Assembly: GCF_000372745.1 (NCBI RefSeq)
Contig: NZ_KB889664.1
Location: 195,665-259,664, forward strand
DNA: 64,000 nt
Direction: 5' to 3'
DNA from: Embleya scabrispora DSM 41855
GTDB lineage: Bacteria; Actinomycetota; Actinomycetes; Streptomycetales; Streptomycetaceae
Shown: in pieces, positions 20,480 to 32,934 of the stretch
How positions within the stretch are numbered: the first letter of the stretch is position 1
Layout: each line of letters opens with the position of its first letter
The notes under the pieces: generated by a model
Seen by the model: only the letters and a program-made list of their open reading frames with translations
What the model was told of the DNA's origin: nothing
Databases searched by the model: none
Position numbers and translations under genes: made by a program

Positions 20480-20989
20480 TCAGTCGATTCCCTGGTCGCG
20501 CAGGCCGCATTCGAACTCCCGGAGGCGTTGCGGCAGCGGTTCGGTCGCCGAACCGCCCTCCGGGGTGGGGCCGGCGTCCGGGGTTGCCGGGCGCGGCTGA
20601 GGCCAGGCGTCGAGGGCGTAGAGGATGTCGAAGTCGCAGAGGTCCATCCAGCCGATGGGGTGGTCGGGATCATGCTCCGCGTCGCCGAGCAGGACGGCCG
20701 CGGTTCCCTCGTGTGGGCGCAGGTCGACGGCATGGCGCACGGCAAGCACCCGGACCAGCCCCGGGGAGAAGTCGGCCGTGGGTGCGAAGTCCGCGCGTAG
20801 GCGCCAGGTTTGGCCGGACTCGGCGATCAGCCAGGGCGAACCGTCGGCGAGCCGCTCGCATGCCACGCGGGTGGCCGCCTCCCGGCCGAGAAGATCGTCG
20901 GTCATGAAGACGTCGATCCAGGCGTTGACGAGGGCCCCGGCGGCCTGGGCGCCGAGGATTTGATCGATGTGCTTGTCGTCGGGGTTCAC
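20480..20989 (-). CDS. Hypothetical protein
   Basis: A 169-residue soluble, acidic protein that I do not recognise. Visible features are an N-terminal NPDDKHIDQILGAQAAGA, a central AESGQTWRLRADF and a DLCDFDILYALDAWPQ segment, then a Pro-rich stretch. There is no signal peptide or membrane segment. GTG at 20989 is preceded by AGGAGAG, which supports translation. It stands alone between non-coding stretches. Confidence 0.6.
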   Translation of the reverse strand: MNPDDKHIDQILGAQAAGALVNAWIDVFMTDDLLGREAATRVACERLADGSPWLIAESGQTWRLRADFAPTADFSPGLVRVLAVRHAVDLRPHEGTAAVLLGDAEHDPDHPIGWMDLCDFDILYALDAWPQPRPATPDAGPTPEGGSATEPLPQRLREFECGLRDQGID

Positions 20990-21689
20990 GGAACTCTCCT
21001 GAGGTGACGGCCCTGGGGGAAGGGGCCGGCGGACGGTGGTCGACTGCGGGTGGGTGGTGGATCCGACTGACGATGGCGCGGGTTCGGCGGGGTGTGCGGA
21101 GTGCGTGTGAGTTTCATGAACGCTGCGGGCGGCGGCGCCGGATCGTCCGCCGACCGGCACCCGATCCGGGACAACACGGGGGATGGCGAGGCCCATTCCG
21201 GCGAGGAGTGTGATCCTGTCGGCACCACGCGGGGGAGCGATCGCCGCTCGGTGCGGGCCGAGGCGGAGGGATGTGCGTGGTGCGGGGCTGCGTGGGTGCC
21301 CGGCATGTCGGCCCCTACCTGAATACGAATTCCGGGTCCGCCCGGTTGCCCCATGCGGCGCTTCTTCTTCGTCGGAACACGCGCGGCCGCCCGATCACCG
21401 CCGCCCGGGCGCCGGTTCGAGGGGCATACGTGGGTTCCGGGACGCGCTCGGTCGCGACGAGTTGTACGAACGGCCCGTGCCCAGGGACCCGGGCGCCGCC
21501 GGTATCGGCCACGTGAGAGCCTGGCACCGGCTTCGCCAAGATCGGTACCGGCGCACCTACGGCGCACACGAGTCTCCCGCAGCAATCGGGGAGCGCGCCG
21601 GGGGAGGCGCCGACGGCAGCCTCCACCCCGAAGAGGTCACCCACGACCGGAAAGTCGCCGCGCCGCCCCGAAGCCGCGGGCGGGTTCGG
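20990..21689. other. About 700 bases without a recognisable gene
   Basis: Open frames here are overlapping, lack ribosome sites and resemble no family known to me. The stretch between the hypothetical gene and the acyl carrier protein gene may hold decayed sequence, but I cannot name a parent gene. Confidence 0.4.
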
Positions 21690-21926
21690 TCACGGGGTGC
21701 CTTTGGCGGTGTCGATGGCTGCCGTGATGTCCTCGATCGTGGTCAGGCCGTCCCTCGTGGTCAGGGTGACGCCGTATTCCCGTTCCAGATTGAGGAGCAG
21801 TTCCGCCTTCTGGATCGAGTCGAACCCCAGGTCGGTCTCCAGGTTCGTTGTCCCGGTGATCTCGTCTATTCCGACCCAGGCCAGATTGGCTGCGGCCCCG
21901 ATGACGGCCTTCTCGGACGTGGTCAA
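21690..21926 (-). CDS. Orphan acyl carrier protein
   Basis: A 78-residue carrier protein with the attachment motif DLGFDSIQKAELLLNLE, in which Ser carries phosphopantetheine, plus the acidic helix that follows. Length is normal for a free-standing ACP. I chose TTG at 21926 because GGGAG lies at correct distance; a longer frame adds only Arg/Pro residues. No ketosynthase, ligase or other assembly-line gene is adjacent, so its partner enzymes are unknown. It is divergent from the MsrA-like gene. Confidence 0.82.
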   Translation of the reverse strand: MTTSEKAVIGAAANLAWVGIDEITGTTNLETDLGFDSIQKAELLLNLEREYGVTLTTRDGLTTIEDITAAIDTAKGTP

Positions 21927-22189
21927 TTCGTACTCCCGGGTTCGCGGTCGAGCGGGCGGCCCGGCCCTGAAAGCCGCGCGCCTGCGACCGGTGCGGTGGC
22001 GCACGGCCCGTTCAGGATCAGGATCTCACGATCCCGTCGGCGCCAAACAACGATTGGGTGTCTCCATGGTTGCCATGCGGGAGCGGGAGGCGCGACGCGG
22101 ACGAAAAGGGTTTCATCCGGTAACCGAAAGCTTCGATCCTGCTACTGTTCGGCGCAGAATGCGGAAGTGGGTTCCGGGGGAGGATTCCG

Positions 22190-25137: not shown

Positions 25138-25660
25138 TCAGCGGCGATCCGGGGGCGGGGGTCGGGAGGTGACGGTTGTTCCGAGGCCGACCGGGGCCGG
25201 TGTGGTGGCGCGGTCGGTCAGATGACGCAGGGCGTGGGCGGCGGGGGAGCCGGCGGGGGCGGTGTAGATCGTCATGGTCAGGTCGGCGTCGTCCGGGGCG
25301 CGCATCGCCACGTAGTCCAGGGCGAGTTCGCCGAGGCGCGGGTGGGCGAAGCGTTTGCGGCCGCGGGTTTTGGCCCGGACGTCGTGGCCGACCCACAGGC
25401 GGCGGAAGTCGGCGCTGCCCTGGGAGAGTTCGCATACCAGGGTGGCCAATCGCGGGTCGTCGGGGTGGCGGCCGGCGTCCAGGCGTTGCGGGCCCGGCCC
25501 TGTTCCAGGCGGGTGTGGTAGTCGACGCTCACGCCCGCGAGCTGGGCCGGTTCCTCGCGGCGCAGACTCGGAACGCGGCGTTGGCCGCCGAACCCGCCGG
25601 CGCCGACGTCGTTCGGGCTCAGCCGGGCCCGCCGGGGCCGGCTGGTGTCACCGGCGGTGC
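25138..25660 (-). pseudogene. Broken MmyB-type helix-turn-helix regulator
   Basis: One frame (near 25490-25650) reads RARLSPNDVG and SLRREEPAQLAGVSVDYHTR, typical of the DNA-binding half of XRE/MmyB regulators. A different frame (25138-25490) reads PDDPRLATLVCELSQGSADF, then KTRGRKRFAHPRLGELALDY, the end of the ligand-binding domain. The middle, normally over 100 residues, is absent and the two halves are out of frame. I therefore read it as a deletion plus frameshift remnant. Confidence 0.8.
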
Positions 25661-25703: not shown

Positions 25704-27638
25704 TCAGCGGTCCGTCGCGTCCGCGTCGCAGGCGGGTCGCCGCGCGGCGGGGCGGGGCGGGGCAGGGAGCGGTGTGGCGGGCTCGTGGACCGAGGACGGC
25801 GCCGCCGGTTGCGCGATGGTGGCGGCGGTCACCGGGGGGCCGGGTACGGCGCCGAAGTTGCGGGCGCGCTCGGTGTAGGTGGTGATGGCCTGCCACAGGT
25901 CGCGGCGGTCGACGTCGGGCCAGCGAGTGTCGCTGAAGTGCAGTTCGGCGTACGCGGCGTGCCAGGGCAACAGATTGGAGGTGCGCTGTTCGCCGCCGGT
26001 GCGCCACAGGAGGTCGACGTCCGGAAGGTCGGGTAGGGCCAGGTGGGCGGCGAACACGCGCTCGGAGATGTGCGCGGGGTCGATTCCACCCGCGGCGGCG
26101 GCCCGGGCCAAGGAGGCGGCGGCCTGGGCGAGTTCGATCCGACCGCCGTAGTTGATGCACAGGGTCAAGGTCAGGCCGGTGCGTTCGCCGGTGCCGTGTT
26201 CCAGGCGGACCAGCTTTTCCAGGATGTCCTGGGGCAGTCCTTCGACGGAGCCGGCCCAGCGCACGCGGATGTCGTGGTCGAGGACGGTCTCTTCGACCAT
26301 GTCGTCGCGTACGAGTGCGAGCAGGCCGTCGATCTCCTCGGGGCGGCGGCGCCAGTTCTCCGTGGAGAAGGCGTAGAGCGTCAGGTGGCGCAGGCCGATT
26401 TCCAGGGCGCCGTGGACGACGTCCTGCATCGATTTCCCGCCCGCGCGGTGGCCTTCGGTGCGGGGGAGACCCCGGTCGGTGGCCCAGCGGCCGTTGCCGT
26501 CCATCACGACGGCCACATGGCGCGGGAGTCGGTGCGCGGGCCAGGTCGGCGGGACGGTGCCGGAGGAATGCGGCCGGGGAGGGGTGGGAGTGTCGGAGCG
26601 GGGGGTCGGCAGCAGGCCGGCCAGGGTCGGTGCGCGCGGTGTCGTGCCGTCGTGTCGAGACCGCGCGGGGGCGATCGGCGTCAGGAACTTCCAGGCGACG
26701 TGCGCCTTCACCTGGGCGGGCAGCAGGATGCGCCAGGTCGCCGTGCGGGGCAGGCGGGGTTTGCGGCGCAGCAGCTTGGTCCCCGTGCGTTCGATGCGGT
26801 CCAGGCGCAGCCGGCCGACGTCGGTCACCGCGCGCGCCACCACCGCCAGTGCGGGGGGCAGTTCCCGGAACAGGTCGGGCTGGGCGAGCCAGGTCCGGGC
26901 CTGTGCGGCCAACCGGCCGATCAGGGCCTCGACGGGGGCGCCCGGCGCGTCGTGCGGGGCGCCGTCGCGGGTCGCGCTTCGGGCGGCGCTCACCAGGTCC
27001 GCCGCCGTGAGGGCGTGGTCGGCGAGGACCTCCATGGGCATGGTGATCCGGCCCTGGGCAAGGTCCTCCGCGAGGTCTTCGAGGTTGTCGATGATGCCGA
27101 GGGCGTCCACCCACTGCCGGGCGGCCTCCAGGTAGCGCAGCCGCAGGGGCAGATACAGCCCGGCGGCGGCCAGCAGGGCCGCGCCCTGGGCGAAGAAGGA
27201 CGTGTTGACGGCTTGGGAGTAGGCGCTCCACGCCTTCCAGGTGGGATGGGTACGGCCGTCGATGTCCGCGCGGGTCGCGGCGAAGGCCGCCGTCAGACCG
27301 TCGGTCGGCAGATCCCACGTCCGCATCGTGTGCACCAGGGCGCGACGTACCGGATCCGTGCTGTCGCCGCGCCGCAGGTCCTCGTGGAACGCGGTGGTCC
27401 AGGCGTCGAACAGGGCCTCCCTGCCGGAGGGTTCCCCGGCGTCGGCGATGTCGTCCATCACTCGGCCGGCCGCGTAGATCGCCCACAGGGCCGGTCGTAA
27501 CGCCGGTGGCATCAGCCGGGCCGTTCGATACTCCGTACCGCCCGCCCTGCGGACCTCGGTGCGGCAAGCCTCATAGGCTTCGACGAGCCGCGGGTCCTCG
27601 ATCGCGGCCGCGCGGTAGACGGAGCGGGGACGGGGCAT
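25704..27638 (-). CDS. Fusion of squalene/phytoene synthase-type and cis-prenyltransferase domains
   Basis: A 644-residue protein. Residues 1-325 form an all-alpha trans-isoprenoid head-to-head synthase-type domain with two acidic motifs, DDIAD (62-66) and DNLEDLAED (184-192), the Mg-diphosphate sites. A Pro-rich linker (330-370) leads to a complete UppS-like domain (373-600) with HVAVVMDGNGRWA (catalytic Asp380), GHRAGGKSM, YAFSTENW and RTGGEQRTSNLLPW. A Pro/Ala tail ends it. Both active sites look intact, so one polypeptide could make a cis-prenyl diphosphate and also condense or cyclise prenyl diphosphates. ATG 27638 has GAGGAG upstream. Products are unknown. Confidence 0.88.
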   Translation of the reverse strand: MPRPRSVYRAAAIEDPRLVEAYEACRTEVRRAGGTEYRTARLMPPALRPALWAIYAAGRVMDDIADAGEPSGREALFDAWTTAFHEDLRRGDSTDPVRRALVHTMRTWDLPTDGLTAAFAATRADIDGRTHPTWKAWSAYSQAVNTSFFAQGAALLAAAGLYLPLRLRYLEAARQWVDALGIIDNLEDLAEDLAQGRITMPMEVLADHALTAADLVSAARSATRDGAPHDAPGAPVEALIGRLAAQARTWLAQPDLFRELPPALAVVARAVTDVGRLRLDRIERTGTKLLRRKPRLPRTATWRILLPAQVKAHVAWKFLTPIAPARSRHDGTTPRAPTLAGLLPTPRSDTPTPPRPHSSGTVPPTWPAHRLPRHVAVVMDGNGRWATDRGLPRTEGHRAGGKSMQDVVHGALEIGLRHLTLYAFSTENWRRRPEEIDGLLALVRDDMVEETVLDHDIRVRWAGSVEGLPQDILEKLVRLEHGTGERTGLTLTLCINYGGRIELAQAAASLARAAAAGGIDPAHISERVFAAHLALPDLPDVDLLWRTGGEQRTSNLLPWHAAYAELHFSDTRWPDVDRRDLWQAITTYTERARNFGAVPGPPVTAATIAQPAAPSSVHEPATPLPAPPRPAARRPACDADATDR

Positions 27639-27979
27639 GTGACTCCTCAACCGGACGTGACGGTATCCGCCGTGCGGCGGGCACATCGATGCGGGTCGGG
27701 CGCACCCGCCGAAGGCGGAGACCGCGCGGGTCCCACCCGGCTCCGGGCAACTCCGCTGCCACGACGCGGCGTTGGCGCGGTTCCCGAACACATGTAGAGG
27801 CAACCGGCTATCGACTCGCCATGTCACGCGAATGGGTCAAAGATGCCTCGTAGGGGTGACGTTGCCAGGGCCGAACGGGTGACGGGTGACGGCCGCCGGC
27901 CGTGGATGCGACGACCGCGTCGACGGCCCGCGTGTGTCCGGAACGCATCGGTCCGCACGATCCTGCCCGCGTATGGAGC
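27639..27979. other. Upstream region of the fusion gene, no gene seen
   Basis: About 340 bases between the fusion start and the possible small membrane protein. I saw no supported coding frame, clear operator or hairpin. Promoters for the fusion gene must lie here. Confidence 0.4.
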
Positions 27980-28297: not shown

Positions 28298-28354
28298 GTT
28301 CAACCCGCACCCTGTCCGGGGCGGACCGAGCAACGAGACGATCGAGGGATGCCC

Positions 28355-30433
28355 ATGGCCCAGGACACCCGACAGCCGCCGGCGGCCCGCCCGTTGCGCC
28401 GCCGTGCCCGCGGCGAAAGGCGACGCGCCCGCGGCGAAAGGCGACGCGCCGCACACGACGCCGCGCGTACGGCGGGAGACACCACCGCCGCCACCCTGTT
28501 CGGAGGCAGCCTCACCCCCGCCTGGAGCGGATACCAACACCGGCGCCAGTCGACGGAGTTGTCCTTTCCGGGCACGCTGCGTCGGCTGCCGCGGCTGGTC
28601 GCGCGGTCCTTGCGGCTGGGGTGGCAGGCCGATCCGGGGGCGCTGGTGATCGTGGTGATCGCCGAGATCGGCCAGGGGTTGACCGCCGCATTCGGCCTGT
28701 TGGCCACGAATCAGATCCTGCTGGAACTGTTCTCCGCCGGACCCACACCCGATCGGGTCCGTTCCGCCGCGCCGGCCCTGCTGACCGTGGCGATCCTCGG
28801 CTGTCTCGGGGCGCTGCTGCGGGCCGCCTCCACGGCCGCCACCGGTCGACTGGAGCCGAAAGTCGAACGCGCCGCCGAGGTCGAACTCCTGGAGCGGGTC
28901 ATCCGGGTGGAGATGACCAAGATCGAGGACCCCGAGTTCAAGAAGCTGATGAGCACGGCCCGCTACGGCACCAATGCCAGTCGCCTGATGATCACCTATG
29001 GCGTCCAGGTCGTGAACGCCCTCGTGTCGCTGATCGCCGTGGGCACGGTGCTGGCCGTCCTGCACCCGCTGCTGCTGCCGCTTCTCGTGCTGATCATCGT
29101 GCCGCAGGGCTGGGGGACGGTGCACTCGGCGCGCCGGAGGTATCGCTCCGTGTCGGCCTGGACGAACCACAGTCGCCAGCAGAGCGAGATCGCCTACTCC
29201 CTGTCGCACCACAGCACCGGCCAGGAGATCCGGGTCCACGGAGTCGGGTCCTACCTCCTGCACCACTATCGGGTCATGGCGCGATGTTCCGAGGCGGAGC
29301 AGACTCGGCTCGCCCGCGCGGATGCCACGACCGACCTGCTCACCTCGGGACTGTCCGGCGTCGCGTCGGGCATCACGTACGCGACGCTCGCGTGGCTCGT
29401 CCTGGGCGGCCACACCGGTCTCGCGACCTCGGGCACCGCGGTGCTCGCCATTCGGACCGGCACCGCCAATCTCGGCGCGCTCGTCCGGGCGATCAACAGC
29501 CTGTATGCCCAGGCCCTGTGGCTCAACGACCTCGAACAGGTCTGCGCCATCGCCGACACCCACGCGATCCCCGACACGGGAGCCTCGCTCGGTCCGCCGA
29601 CGACGATCGAGGTACGCAACGTGTCGTTCACCTATCCCGGCCGTGACCGGCCCGCCCTGGACGACGTGACCCTGACGCTGCCCCGCGGCAAGGTCATCGC
29701 CCTCGCGGGGGAGAACGGCTCGGGCAAGTCCACCCTCGCCAAGATCCTCGCCGGCCTGTACCTGCCCTCCGAGGGGCACGTCCTGTGGGACGGCGTGGAC
29801 ATCCGCGAAGCCGACCGCACCACGTGGTTCGAGCACATCGGCCTCGTCCAGCAGGACTTCGCCCGTTGGGACCTCACCGCCCGAGCCAACGTCGTCATGG
29901 GCCGCCCCGACGTCGCGGCACCCCCGGACCCGATCCTGTTCCAACAGGCGTCCGACTACGCCCAGGCGCACAAGGTCACCGACGAGCTTCCCCGGGGCTG
30001 GGACACCCTTCTCGACCAGACCTACGACGGCGGTGTCGAACTCTCCGGCGGCCAATGGCAACGCCTGGCCCTGGCCCGGGCCCGATTTCGCAACGCGCAC
30101 GTGGTCGTCTTCGACGAACCGACCGCCGCTTTGGACGCGCACGCCGAACACGAGGCGTTCACCCGCATGCGCGAACTCGTGCACGAGGGCGTCACCGTCA
30201 TCCTGATCACCCACCGGCTCGCCTCCGTACGACGGGCCGACCACATCCACGTGCTCGACCACGGCCGCGTCGCGGAGTCGGGCACGCACGAGGAACTGGT
30301 GGCCGCCGACGGGCCGTACGCCCGGATGTACCGGATCCAAGCCGACCAATACCGCCAGGAACACCGGGAGTCGGCGTCGTCCGCACCGGACACCGCACAC
30401 GAGGGCGACCCGTCCACGGACTGCCGGTCGTGA
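28355..30433 (+). CDS. ABC half-exporter (fused membrane and ATPase domains)
   Basis: A 692-residue protein. After an Arg-rich leader comes a six-segment membrane domain (about residues 90-400), then an ATPase with Walker A GENGSGKS, signature LSGGQWQRLALARA, and Walker B VVVFDEPTAALD. Type I exporters of this design work as dimers and export lipids, peptides or drugs. ATG 28355 is six bases past GAGGG; an ATG at 28349 is too close. It is divergent from the prenyltransferase fusion and ends exactly where the convergent acyltransferase ends. Confidence 0.9.
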   Translation: MAQDTRQPPAARPLRRRARGERRRARGERRRAAHDAARTAGDTTAATLFGGSLTPAWSGYQHRRQSTELSFPGTLRRLPRLVARSLRLGWQADPGALVIVVIAEIGQGLTAAFGLLATNQILLELFSAGPTPDRVRSAAPALLTVAILGCLGALLRAASTAATGRLEPKVERAAEVELLERVIRVEMTKIEDPEFKKLMSTARYGTNASRLMITYGVQVVNALVSLIAVGTVLAVLHPLLLPLLVLIIVPQGWGTVHSARRRYRSVSAWTNHSRQQSEIAYSLSHHSTGQEIRVHGVGSYLLHHYRVMARCSEAEQTRLARADATTDLLTSGLSGVASGITYATLAWLVLGGHTGLATSGTAVLAIRTGTANLGALVRAINSLYAQALWLNDLEQVCAIADTHAIPDTGASLGPPTTIEVRNVSFTYPGRDRPALDDVTLTLPRGKVIALAGENGSGKSTLAKILAGLYLPSEGHVLWDGVDIREADRTTWFEHIGLVQQDFARWDLTARANVVMGRPDVAAPPDPILFQQASDYAQAHKVTDELPRGWDTLLDQTYDGGVELSGGQWQRLALARARFRNAHVVVFDEPTAALDAHAEHEAFTRMRELVHEGVTVILITHRLASVRRADHIHVLDHGRVAESGTHEELVAADGPYARMYRIQADQYRQEHRESASSAPDTAHEGDPSTDCRS
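28406..28447. repeat. Perfect 21-bp tandem duplication in the ABC gene
   Basis: Two identical adjacent copies starting GCCCGCGGCG encode a repeated Arg-Ala-Arg-Gly-Glu-Arg-Arg in the cytoplasmic leader of the exporter. The exact identity suggests a recent slippage event. Confidence 0.8.
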
Positions 30434-32487: not shown

Positions 32488-32934
32488 TTACTCCGCGTCC
32501 GCCACGGTCCGGCTGCCGCCCGCCTGGTCGTTGTCCTTGAGCGTGCCCCAGCCGTGCCAGCGGTCGATCCGGATCCAGGCGCTGACTCGGCCCCGGTTCC
32601 GCTGCGGGTATTCCTGGTCGGTGTAGTGACGGGCCAGCCGGTCGATGTCGACCATGTCCTTGTCGTCGCGGATCTCGTCGATGTGGCCGACGATGCTGAG
32701 GTGCGTGTACCAGTTCCCGGTTTCGAGCACGGTGAGGGAGACGCGGGGATCGTTGCGGATGTGGTCGAGCCGCTTGCGTCCCTCGTCCATGTTGAGCAGG
32801 ATGCGTCCCTCGTCCCACAGGTACCAGGTCGCCGTCGAAACGGGCTGCCCGTCGGCCCGAAGCGTGGTCACGACTGCGGGATTGGGCTGCCGCAACATCG
32901 CGATCGCCTCTTCGGGCAGCGGCGGCTTCGACAT
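32488..32934 (-). CDS. PPOX-class (pyridoxamine oxidase-like) flavin/F420 protein
   Basis: A 148-residue split-barrel protein. It shows PNPAVVTTLRADGQPVSTATWY at the start, the KRLDHIRNDPRVSLTVLE cofactor strand and YTHLSIVGHIDEI. Actinobacterial members of this group bind F420 or flavin and act as small oxidoreductases; the exact cofactor cannot be assigned here. Length is typical and ATG 32934 is natural. It stands alone. Confidence 0.88.
   Translation of the reverse strand: MSKPPLPEEAIAMLRQPNPAVVTTLRADGQPVSTATWYLWDEGRILLNMDEGRKRLDHIRNDPRVSLTVLETGNWYTHLSIVGHIDEIRDDKDMVDIDRLARHYTDQEYPQRNRGRVSAWIRIDRWHGWGTLKDNDQAGGSRTVADAE

Follow-up and report, generated by a model that had tools for sequence, protein, structure and literature searches.

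A fused squalene/phytoene-synthase-like and cis-prenyltransferase protein of Embleya scabrispora belongs to a family recurring in Streptomyces

Results and discussion

A two-domain protein in a single reading frame

A gene of Embleya scabrispora, located in the 64,000-nucleotide stretch of DNA that was analysed (the window), encodes a protein in which a squalene/phytoene-synthase-like domain (domain 1) is fused to a cis-prenyltransferase (cis-PT, domain 2). Each domain is of a known kind and the combination appears to be new. The design is that of a family and is not unique to this genome. Taking prenyl transfer, head-to-head coupling and ionisation with quenching together, the protein is very likely a two-step enzyme of some kind.

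Features of the gene are provided in Table 1. The first-pass annotation had placed it exactly, with the ATG at 27638 and the end of the frame at 25704 on the minus strand, and had rightly assigned both domains to one protein: the frame of 644 codons is uninterrupted and each domain scores above its Pfam cut-off (104.5 bits against 26 for PF00494 and 232 against 27 for PF01255). All motifs that it quoted are found in the protein. Domain 2 also exceeds the cut-off of the NCBIfam uppS model TIGR00055 (222 against 109.55 bits). A scan for promoters and terminators found none. Directly downstream (25138-25620, minus strand) lies the remnant of an XRE/MmyB-type regulator, of which an HTH-like peptide (recognised by eye) and a PF17765 ligand-binding domain occupy different frames and the middle is missing.

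Table 1. Position of the fusion gene, its parts and the adjoining exporter gene in the window.
Feature	Position	Strand	Remarks
Fusion CDS, 644 aa	25704..27638	-	Single open frame, ATG start at 27638; NBC_00888 orthologue intact
GAGGAG, probable ribosome-binding site (Shine-Dalgarno-like)	27643..27648	-	Sequence read directly
Squalene/phytoene-synthase-like domain (PF00494), aa 30-298	26745..27551	-	Pfam, 1e-29
First Asp motif, D62-D-I-A-D66	27441..27455	-	Domain 1
Second Asp motif, D184NLEDLAED192	27063..27089	-	Domain 1
Pro-rich linker, aa 321-370, weakly constrained	26529..26678	-	pLDDT <50 at 327-349; dN/dS 0.69
cis-Prenyltransferase domain (PF01255), aa 378-596	25851..26507	-	Pfam, 7.8e-69
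ABC exporter (permease-ATPase, PF00005), divergent, start uncertain	28346..30433	+	Adjoins fusion

Distribution of the fusion

A search of the kind suggested by the first-pass annotation, for the same domain order in other proteins, shows that the architecture recurs across Streptomyces. In 392 genomes of a genus taken as Streptomyces (g9), which belongs to the same family as the window genome, the domain 1 profile finds 49 places at 222 bits or more, spread over 46 genomes, with the next match at 156 bits. All 49 places were inspected and 41 (38 genomes) hold both domains in one frame, including one (L058) where the N-terminal part of domain 1 is absent from that frame. Elsewhere the domains lie in two frames (L056), the first domain is broken while in frame with the second (L067), a contig end cuts the match (L048, L060, L173 and L175) or a cis-PT was not found (L052/L178 and L163). 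Among the most closely studied producers of antibiotics the family is frequent (fusion confirmed in 38 of 392 genomes, strong match in 46 of 392), and one genome (G336) carries a second copy (L085). Near one of the fusions (L171, minus strand) a second, unfused cis-PT-like frame is present (147 bits).

In a class-wide sample of 394 genomes, five matches reach 390-522 bits (G000, G011, G033, G759 and G806), all of them from the taxonomic family of the window genome; the other 33 matches at E 1e-40 or better score 139-171 bits. Among the matches listed (at least 20 loci, with one non-fusion), the named hosts include Streptomyces natalensis, S. humidus, S. flavochromogenes, S. pseudovenezuelae, S. 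massasporeus and S. coeruleorubidus. Conservation was assessed on 44 distinct fused frames, two of which (L058 and L067) have an incomplete first domain.

Selection and phylogeny

The closest relative of the window protein is found in Embleya sp. NBC_00888; it is 83% identical, and its gene, also one open frame, is carried by a linear replicon of 5.7 Mb that the record lists as a plasmid. Between these two orthologues (NG86 method, own script, 606 codons) dN/dS amounts to 0.215 for domain 1 (308 codons) and 0.157 for domain 2 (228 codons), against 0.69 for the linker (50 codons) and 1.02 for the C-terminal tail (only 20 codons). The low ratios in the domains and the high ratios elsewhere indicate purifying selection on the two domains, with linker and tail exempt. 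A sequencing or frame artefact was considered and rejected, as the frames of the orthologue and the family are intact.

A tree was built from 94 first domains, after copies and partial rows had been removed by hand and three identical rows dropped. All 43 fusions form one group in it with a support of 100/99, most simply explained if the first domain in its fused form arose once. The ten CqsB4/DmtC-like rows, whose only proven members are near-copies of CqsB4, fall in a separate clade in this tree, whose deeper nodes are weak and in which long branches come together. Five standalone sequences are placed nearest to the fusions, a position that rests on long branches; a cis-PT was not found in their 1.5-kb flanks, nor among genes called across some 20 kb of surrounding sequence (by a caller that missed the standalone gene of L149). 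Distances of domain 1 and domain 2 correlate strongly (r = 0.953, with 0 of 2000 permutations as high), as shared ancestry alone would give. One subclade (L165, L166, L169, L170, L172 and L174) has common neighbours with no obvious isoprenoid link, as judged by eye.

Class of the first domain

The first-pass annotation described domain 1 as a head-to-head prenyl synthase. This label is doubtful on sequence grounds: the domain stays far below the cut-offs of such enzymes, carries Asp in the second motif and lacks their small-residue stretch. Its scores miss the NCBIfam equivalog cut-offs for HpnD (86.6 against 278.6 bits), HpnC (73.7 against 250.45) and cyanobacterial CrtB (53.5 against 550). 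Both Asp motifs are retained in the family, the first with all three Asp in 43 of the 44 fusions (the other has a gap) and the second with D184, D188 and D192 in all 44.

To name the comparison groups we used the NCBIfam scores of ten representatives (only the HpnC and HpnD of the window genome itself pass a cut-off), identity to a CqsB4 fragment (97, 97 and 70% for the CqsB4-like rows) and, for some regions, neighbouring genes that by eye resemble cyclodipeptide synthases. In the groups so named, which do not derive from assays, the second motif starts with Asp in 43/43 fusions, 3/3 CqsB4-like, 7/7 other prenyltransferase-like and 5/5 nearest standalone rows, against Asn in 34/34 CrtB-like or other standalone rows and in the genome's own HpnD, and Glu in its own HpnC (Asn in 35 of the 36 rows of head-to-head type). 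R59 is kept in all 36 head-to-head-type rows, in 10 of 43 fusions and in none of the ten prenyltransferase-like rows of the same groups. The small-residue stretch after the conserved Tyr matters for head-to-head coupling; following Tyr 140 it reads VAGTVG in HpnD and SAAVIG in CrtB-like rows, is replaced in the fusions shown and reads AYSQAVNTSFFAQG in the window protein. Position 147 is Pro in 41 of 43 fusion rows and Ser in the window protein and its orthologue. Judged by the second-motif Asp and the absent small-residue stretch, the fusions resemble phytoene-synthase-like prenyltransferases.

The window protein and its orthologue have the most head-to-head-like set among the fusions, as they keep R59, Y140 and E191 (the last in these two of the 44 fusions), which makes the case against head-to-head coupling less strict for them than for most other members. 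In human squalene synthase the second motif begins with Asp, so that Asp at this place is compatible with head-to-head coupling. Hopanoid squalene synthesis was considered as a role and rejected, given that the genome's own HpnC/HpnD pair scores above cut-off elsewhere.

An AlphaFold model of the window protein (25 sequences, mean pLDDT 70.1) reaches a pLDDT of mostly 77-97 in domain 1 (with two blocks at 61), while the cis-PT half is poor (below 50 in most of 381-399 and 536-644). The best match of the domain 1 model (residues 3-328) is LvqB4 (Z 28.8, 308 residues, 3.1 Å), tied with CqsB4 (Z 28.1), which in turn is tied with a CrtM-like structure (Z 27.3, 273 residues); HpnC (Z 24.5), YisP (3we9, Z 21.3) and human squalene synthase (Z 19-21) come lower. 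The model of domain 1 is at least as close to the carbazole prenyltransferases LvqB4 and CqsB4 as to enzymes of the CrtM type.

The cis-prenyltransferase domain

All 15 positions checked in domain 2, which we take to be catalytic or IPP-binding, are present in the window protein and are kept in 43-44 of the 44 fusions. At the C-terminus, NFG stands in place of the RXG motif in the window protein and its orthologue, Arg being replaced by Asn; among the 43 fusions having this region, RxG is found in 36, HxG in five and NxG in these two. In known cis-prenyltransferases the Arg and Gly of the motif bind Mg2+ and the acceptor phosphate (PMC8131916). Full ordinary elongation activity of the window protein is thus not certain, and since domain 2 matches its profile, the loss limits the claim on activity and not that on the fold. 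The position of UPPS A69 is occupied by A in 25, T in 16, L in two and M in one of the 44 fusions, and is presumably linked to chain length.

The closest solved relatives of domain 2 make C50-C60 products: it is 52% identical to the dodecaprenyl diphosphate synthase of T. fusca and 46-49% to Rv2361 (decaprenyl). Identity to 22 other fused cis-PTs is higher (58-65%) than to the nearest paralogue in its own genome (50%). As that genome holds three further cis-PTs, a role as the housekeeping UppS was rejected.

Gene neighbourhoods

Context was surveyed at 44 fusion loci (flanks of varying length, one duplicate record with L072 = L091), where neighbours are partly annotated and loci with short flanks tell little. 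Genes for an ABC ATPase and an ABC-2 permease lie upstream in the same direction at 19 of the 44, in several subclades. A DUF6230 and DUF6114 pair is seen at seven loci, a YihY-like gene (named by eye) also at seven, and a P450 gene with a divergent cholesterol-oxidase-type GMC gene (342.6 bits against a model cut-off of 850) at four, three of which also have the DUF pair. Acceptor-making genes lie beside few of these partly annotated loci, and none was found among the nine window neighbours scanned with Pfam. At L079, L088 and L089 the DUF pair sits between the P450 gene and the fusion. This association with the P450 gene and the fusion may help to assign a function to both DUFs.

Around the fusion in both Embleya-type genomes, order and orientation are kept at window positions 20480-22004 and 32488-32934, the conserved flankers being a small acyl-carrier-protein-like gene, an unnamed 238-aa protein and a PPOX-family protein; the genes in between differ. 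The ABC exporter gene of Table 1 and an acyltransferase gene beside the window fusion have no nucleotide counterpart around the NBC_00888 orthologue (L108). Upstream of that orthologue stand, in line, genes for a salicylate synthase (375.7 bits, cut-off 325.15), an AurF-like protein (20.5 bits, below the Pfam cut-off of 29.6) and a P450 (L108:10597-14587), which hints at an aromatic acceptor in the NBC_00888 strain. None of these three lies beside the window gene; homologues of the salicylate synthase (45% identity) and the AurF-like protein (59% identity) sit on other contigs of the window genome.

Proposed mechanism and alternatives

Fusion of a cis-PT with a squalene-synthase-like enzyme suggests that both act on the same molecule and hence that the donor is a cis-prenyl diphosphate; to our knowledge, the squalene-synthase-like transferase fold is otherwise known mainly with DMAPP and trans donors. 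The first-pass annotation had likewise proposed channelling from the second domain into the first. With motifs intact and both domains under selection, a two-step route through a cis-prenyl diphosphate is the natural reading; its head-to-head part is not supported.

Our leading candidate, favoured tentatively, is a route in which domain 2 makes a Z-prenyl diphosphate that domain 1 ionises and transfers. Domain 2 would add IPP to an all-trans starter (most likely FPP) to give a Z,E-prenyl diphosphate. Domain 1 would bind this through Mg2+ at D62-D63-D66 and D184-D188-D192, ionise it and attach the prenyl group to an acceptor, which would not be another prenyl diphosphate, much as NzsG, CqsB4 and DmtC1 do. 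In many Streptomyces relatives the product would probably be exported or handled at the membrane, via the upstream ABC ATPase and ABC-2 permease or DUF6230/DUF6114. The activity of each domain, the order of the steps, the non-prenyl acceptor and the benefit of tethering are what we infer from the evidence at hand. This transfer route is favoured by the scores above cut-off, the conserved motifs, dN/dS, the single clade, the second-motif Asp and the loss of R59, and further by the structural matches to LvqB4 and CqsB4, the precedent of NzsG, CqsB4, DmtC1 and NozPT, the unfused parallel at L153 (see below) and the loci with an ABC-2 permease. Against it count that the tree separates the fusions from the CqsB4/DmtC-like rows, that R59, Y140 and E191 are kept in the window protein and its orthologue, that the Z-scores of LvqB4, CqsB4 and the CrtM-like structure are close, and that few acceptor-making genes are nearby, as a special aromatic acceptor would need. 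The loss of the RXG Arg, the Asp of human squalene synthase and the naming of comparison groups without assays weigh on the same side.

Small operons without acceptor genes point either to a common primary metabolite as acceptor or to domain 1 ionising the cis-prenyl diphosphate, followed by quenching with water or cyclisation, to yield a Z-prenol or cyclic terpene. The latter needs no acceptor genes, which fits the small ABC-transporter operons, and the P450 and GMC genes beside 4 of the 44 fusions agree with it. YisP, which has a terpene-synthase- or phosphatase-like reaction with FPP, is among the structural matches, but is a weaker match than LvqB4, CqsB4 and the CrtM-like structure, and we regard this outcome as conceivable though not likely. 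The same economy speaks for a product built from prenyl diphosphates alone, in which domain 1 would couple two of them, at least one being cis, into a hydrocarbon resembling squalene or phytoene but Z-configured, with oxidation or export to follow; the P450 and cholesterol-oxidase-type GMC genes at the four loci would suit a squalene-like substrate. Such coupling agrees with the fold and Asp motifs of domain 1, and with the R59, Y140 and DNLEDLAED that the window protein keeps. Nonetheless it is unlikely, as domain 1 falls far below the HpnC, HpnD and CrtB cut-offs, the second-motif Asn is Asp in every one of the 43 fusions, R59 is lost in 33 of 43, and the VAGxVG-like stretch is replaced (with Pro at 147 in 41 of 43 and Ser in the two Embleya proteins).

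It might also be argued that domain 1 is a non-catalytic scaffold or chain-length regulator of the cis-PT and that the product is a bactoprenol-like lipid carrier, since the solved structures closest to the cis-PT domain belong to enzymes making long chains (the dodecaprenyl enzyme of T. fusca, 52%; the decaprenyl enzyme Rv2361, 46-49%). The six Asp positions of the metal motifs are nevertheless kept in 43-44 of the 44 fusions, domain 1 is under selection of its own (dN/dS 0.215) and the genome has three further cis-PTs, which makes this explanation improbable.

Significance

The fusion may yield a terpenoid or lipid of a new kind. More speculatively, the family may amount to a one-protein pathway, with one polypeptide both making and using the chain, to an undescribed class of Z-terpenoids or prenylated lipids, coupled to an ABC exporter or a DUF6230/DUF6114 module and present in about one tenth of Streptomyces species. 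The first-pass annotation knew of no characterised enzyme of this design, and our literature search, which covered papers available without subscription, found none either. A Streptomyces tendae plasmid record annotates its copy as 'polyprenyl diphosphate synthase', after the second domain; given that only this name is used, the chemistry of the fusion could have escaped notice. As the transporter-linked operons are compact enough for expression as a whole, the question is directly testable.

Comparison with known systems

Like HpnC/HpnD and CrtB/CrtM, the fusions belong to the same Pfam family and share the fold and a DDxxD-type first motif; they differ in scoring below the cut-offs, in having Asp for Asn, in mostly lacking R59 and in the replaced VAGxVG-like stretch. 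Actinobacterial long-chain cis-prenyltransferases (Rv2361; T. fusca 7cpm/7cpn) have 46-52% identity and the catalytic positions in common with domain 2, whereas they are unfused and keep the RXG motif whose Arg is missing from the window fusion.

Comparable to domain 1 are NzsG, CqsB4, LvqB4, DmtC1 and NozPT, which combine the squalene-synthase fold with two Asp motifs as the fusions do. Transfer of prenyl groups to carbazoles or indoles by this fold is established for NzsG and CqsB4 (PMC7466098), DmtC1 (PMC6173783) and NozPT (PMC10156859). The five proteins act beside acceptor-making genes, and the text consulted describes no cis-PT domain for them. Phytoene-synthase-like prenyltransferases also share the second-motif Asp with the fusions (10 of 10 aligned relatives), but the fusions form a clade of their own and bring their own cis-PT.

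The closest parallels to the proposed route are found in separate proteins. One CqsB4-like/DmtC-like region (L153), the only one of six (L152-L157) with a cis-PT among its called genes, has a prenyltransferase-like gene 1.7 kb from a separate cis-prenyltransferase gene. Cyclodipeptide-synthase-like and methyltransferase-like genes (both recognised by eye) are also present there (L153:6493-10659), and the region may make a cis-prenylated diketopiperazine. In the lavanduquinocin pathway, cyclolavandulyl diphosphate synthase, whose product is an irregular C10 unit and which is remotely related to the window cis-PT, is reportedly paired with LvqB4. Lavanduquinocin itself carries a cyclolavandulyl group. 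A cis-PT-fold enzyme and a squalene-synthase-like transferase thus presumably act there in sequence, as proposed for the fusion, although in lavanduquinocin biosynthesis they are separate proteins and in the fusion they are one.
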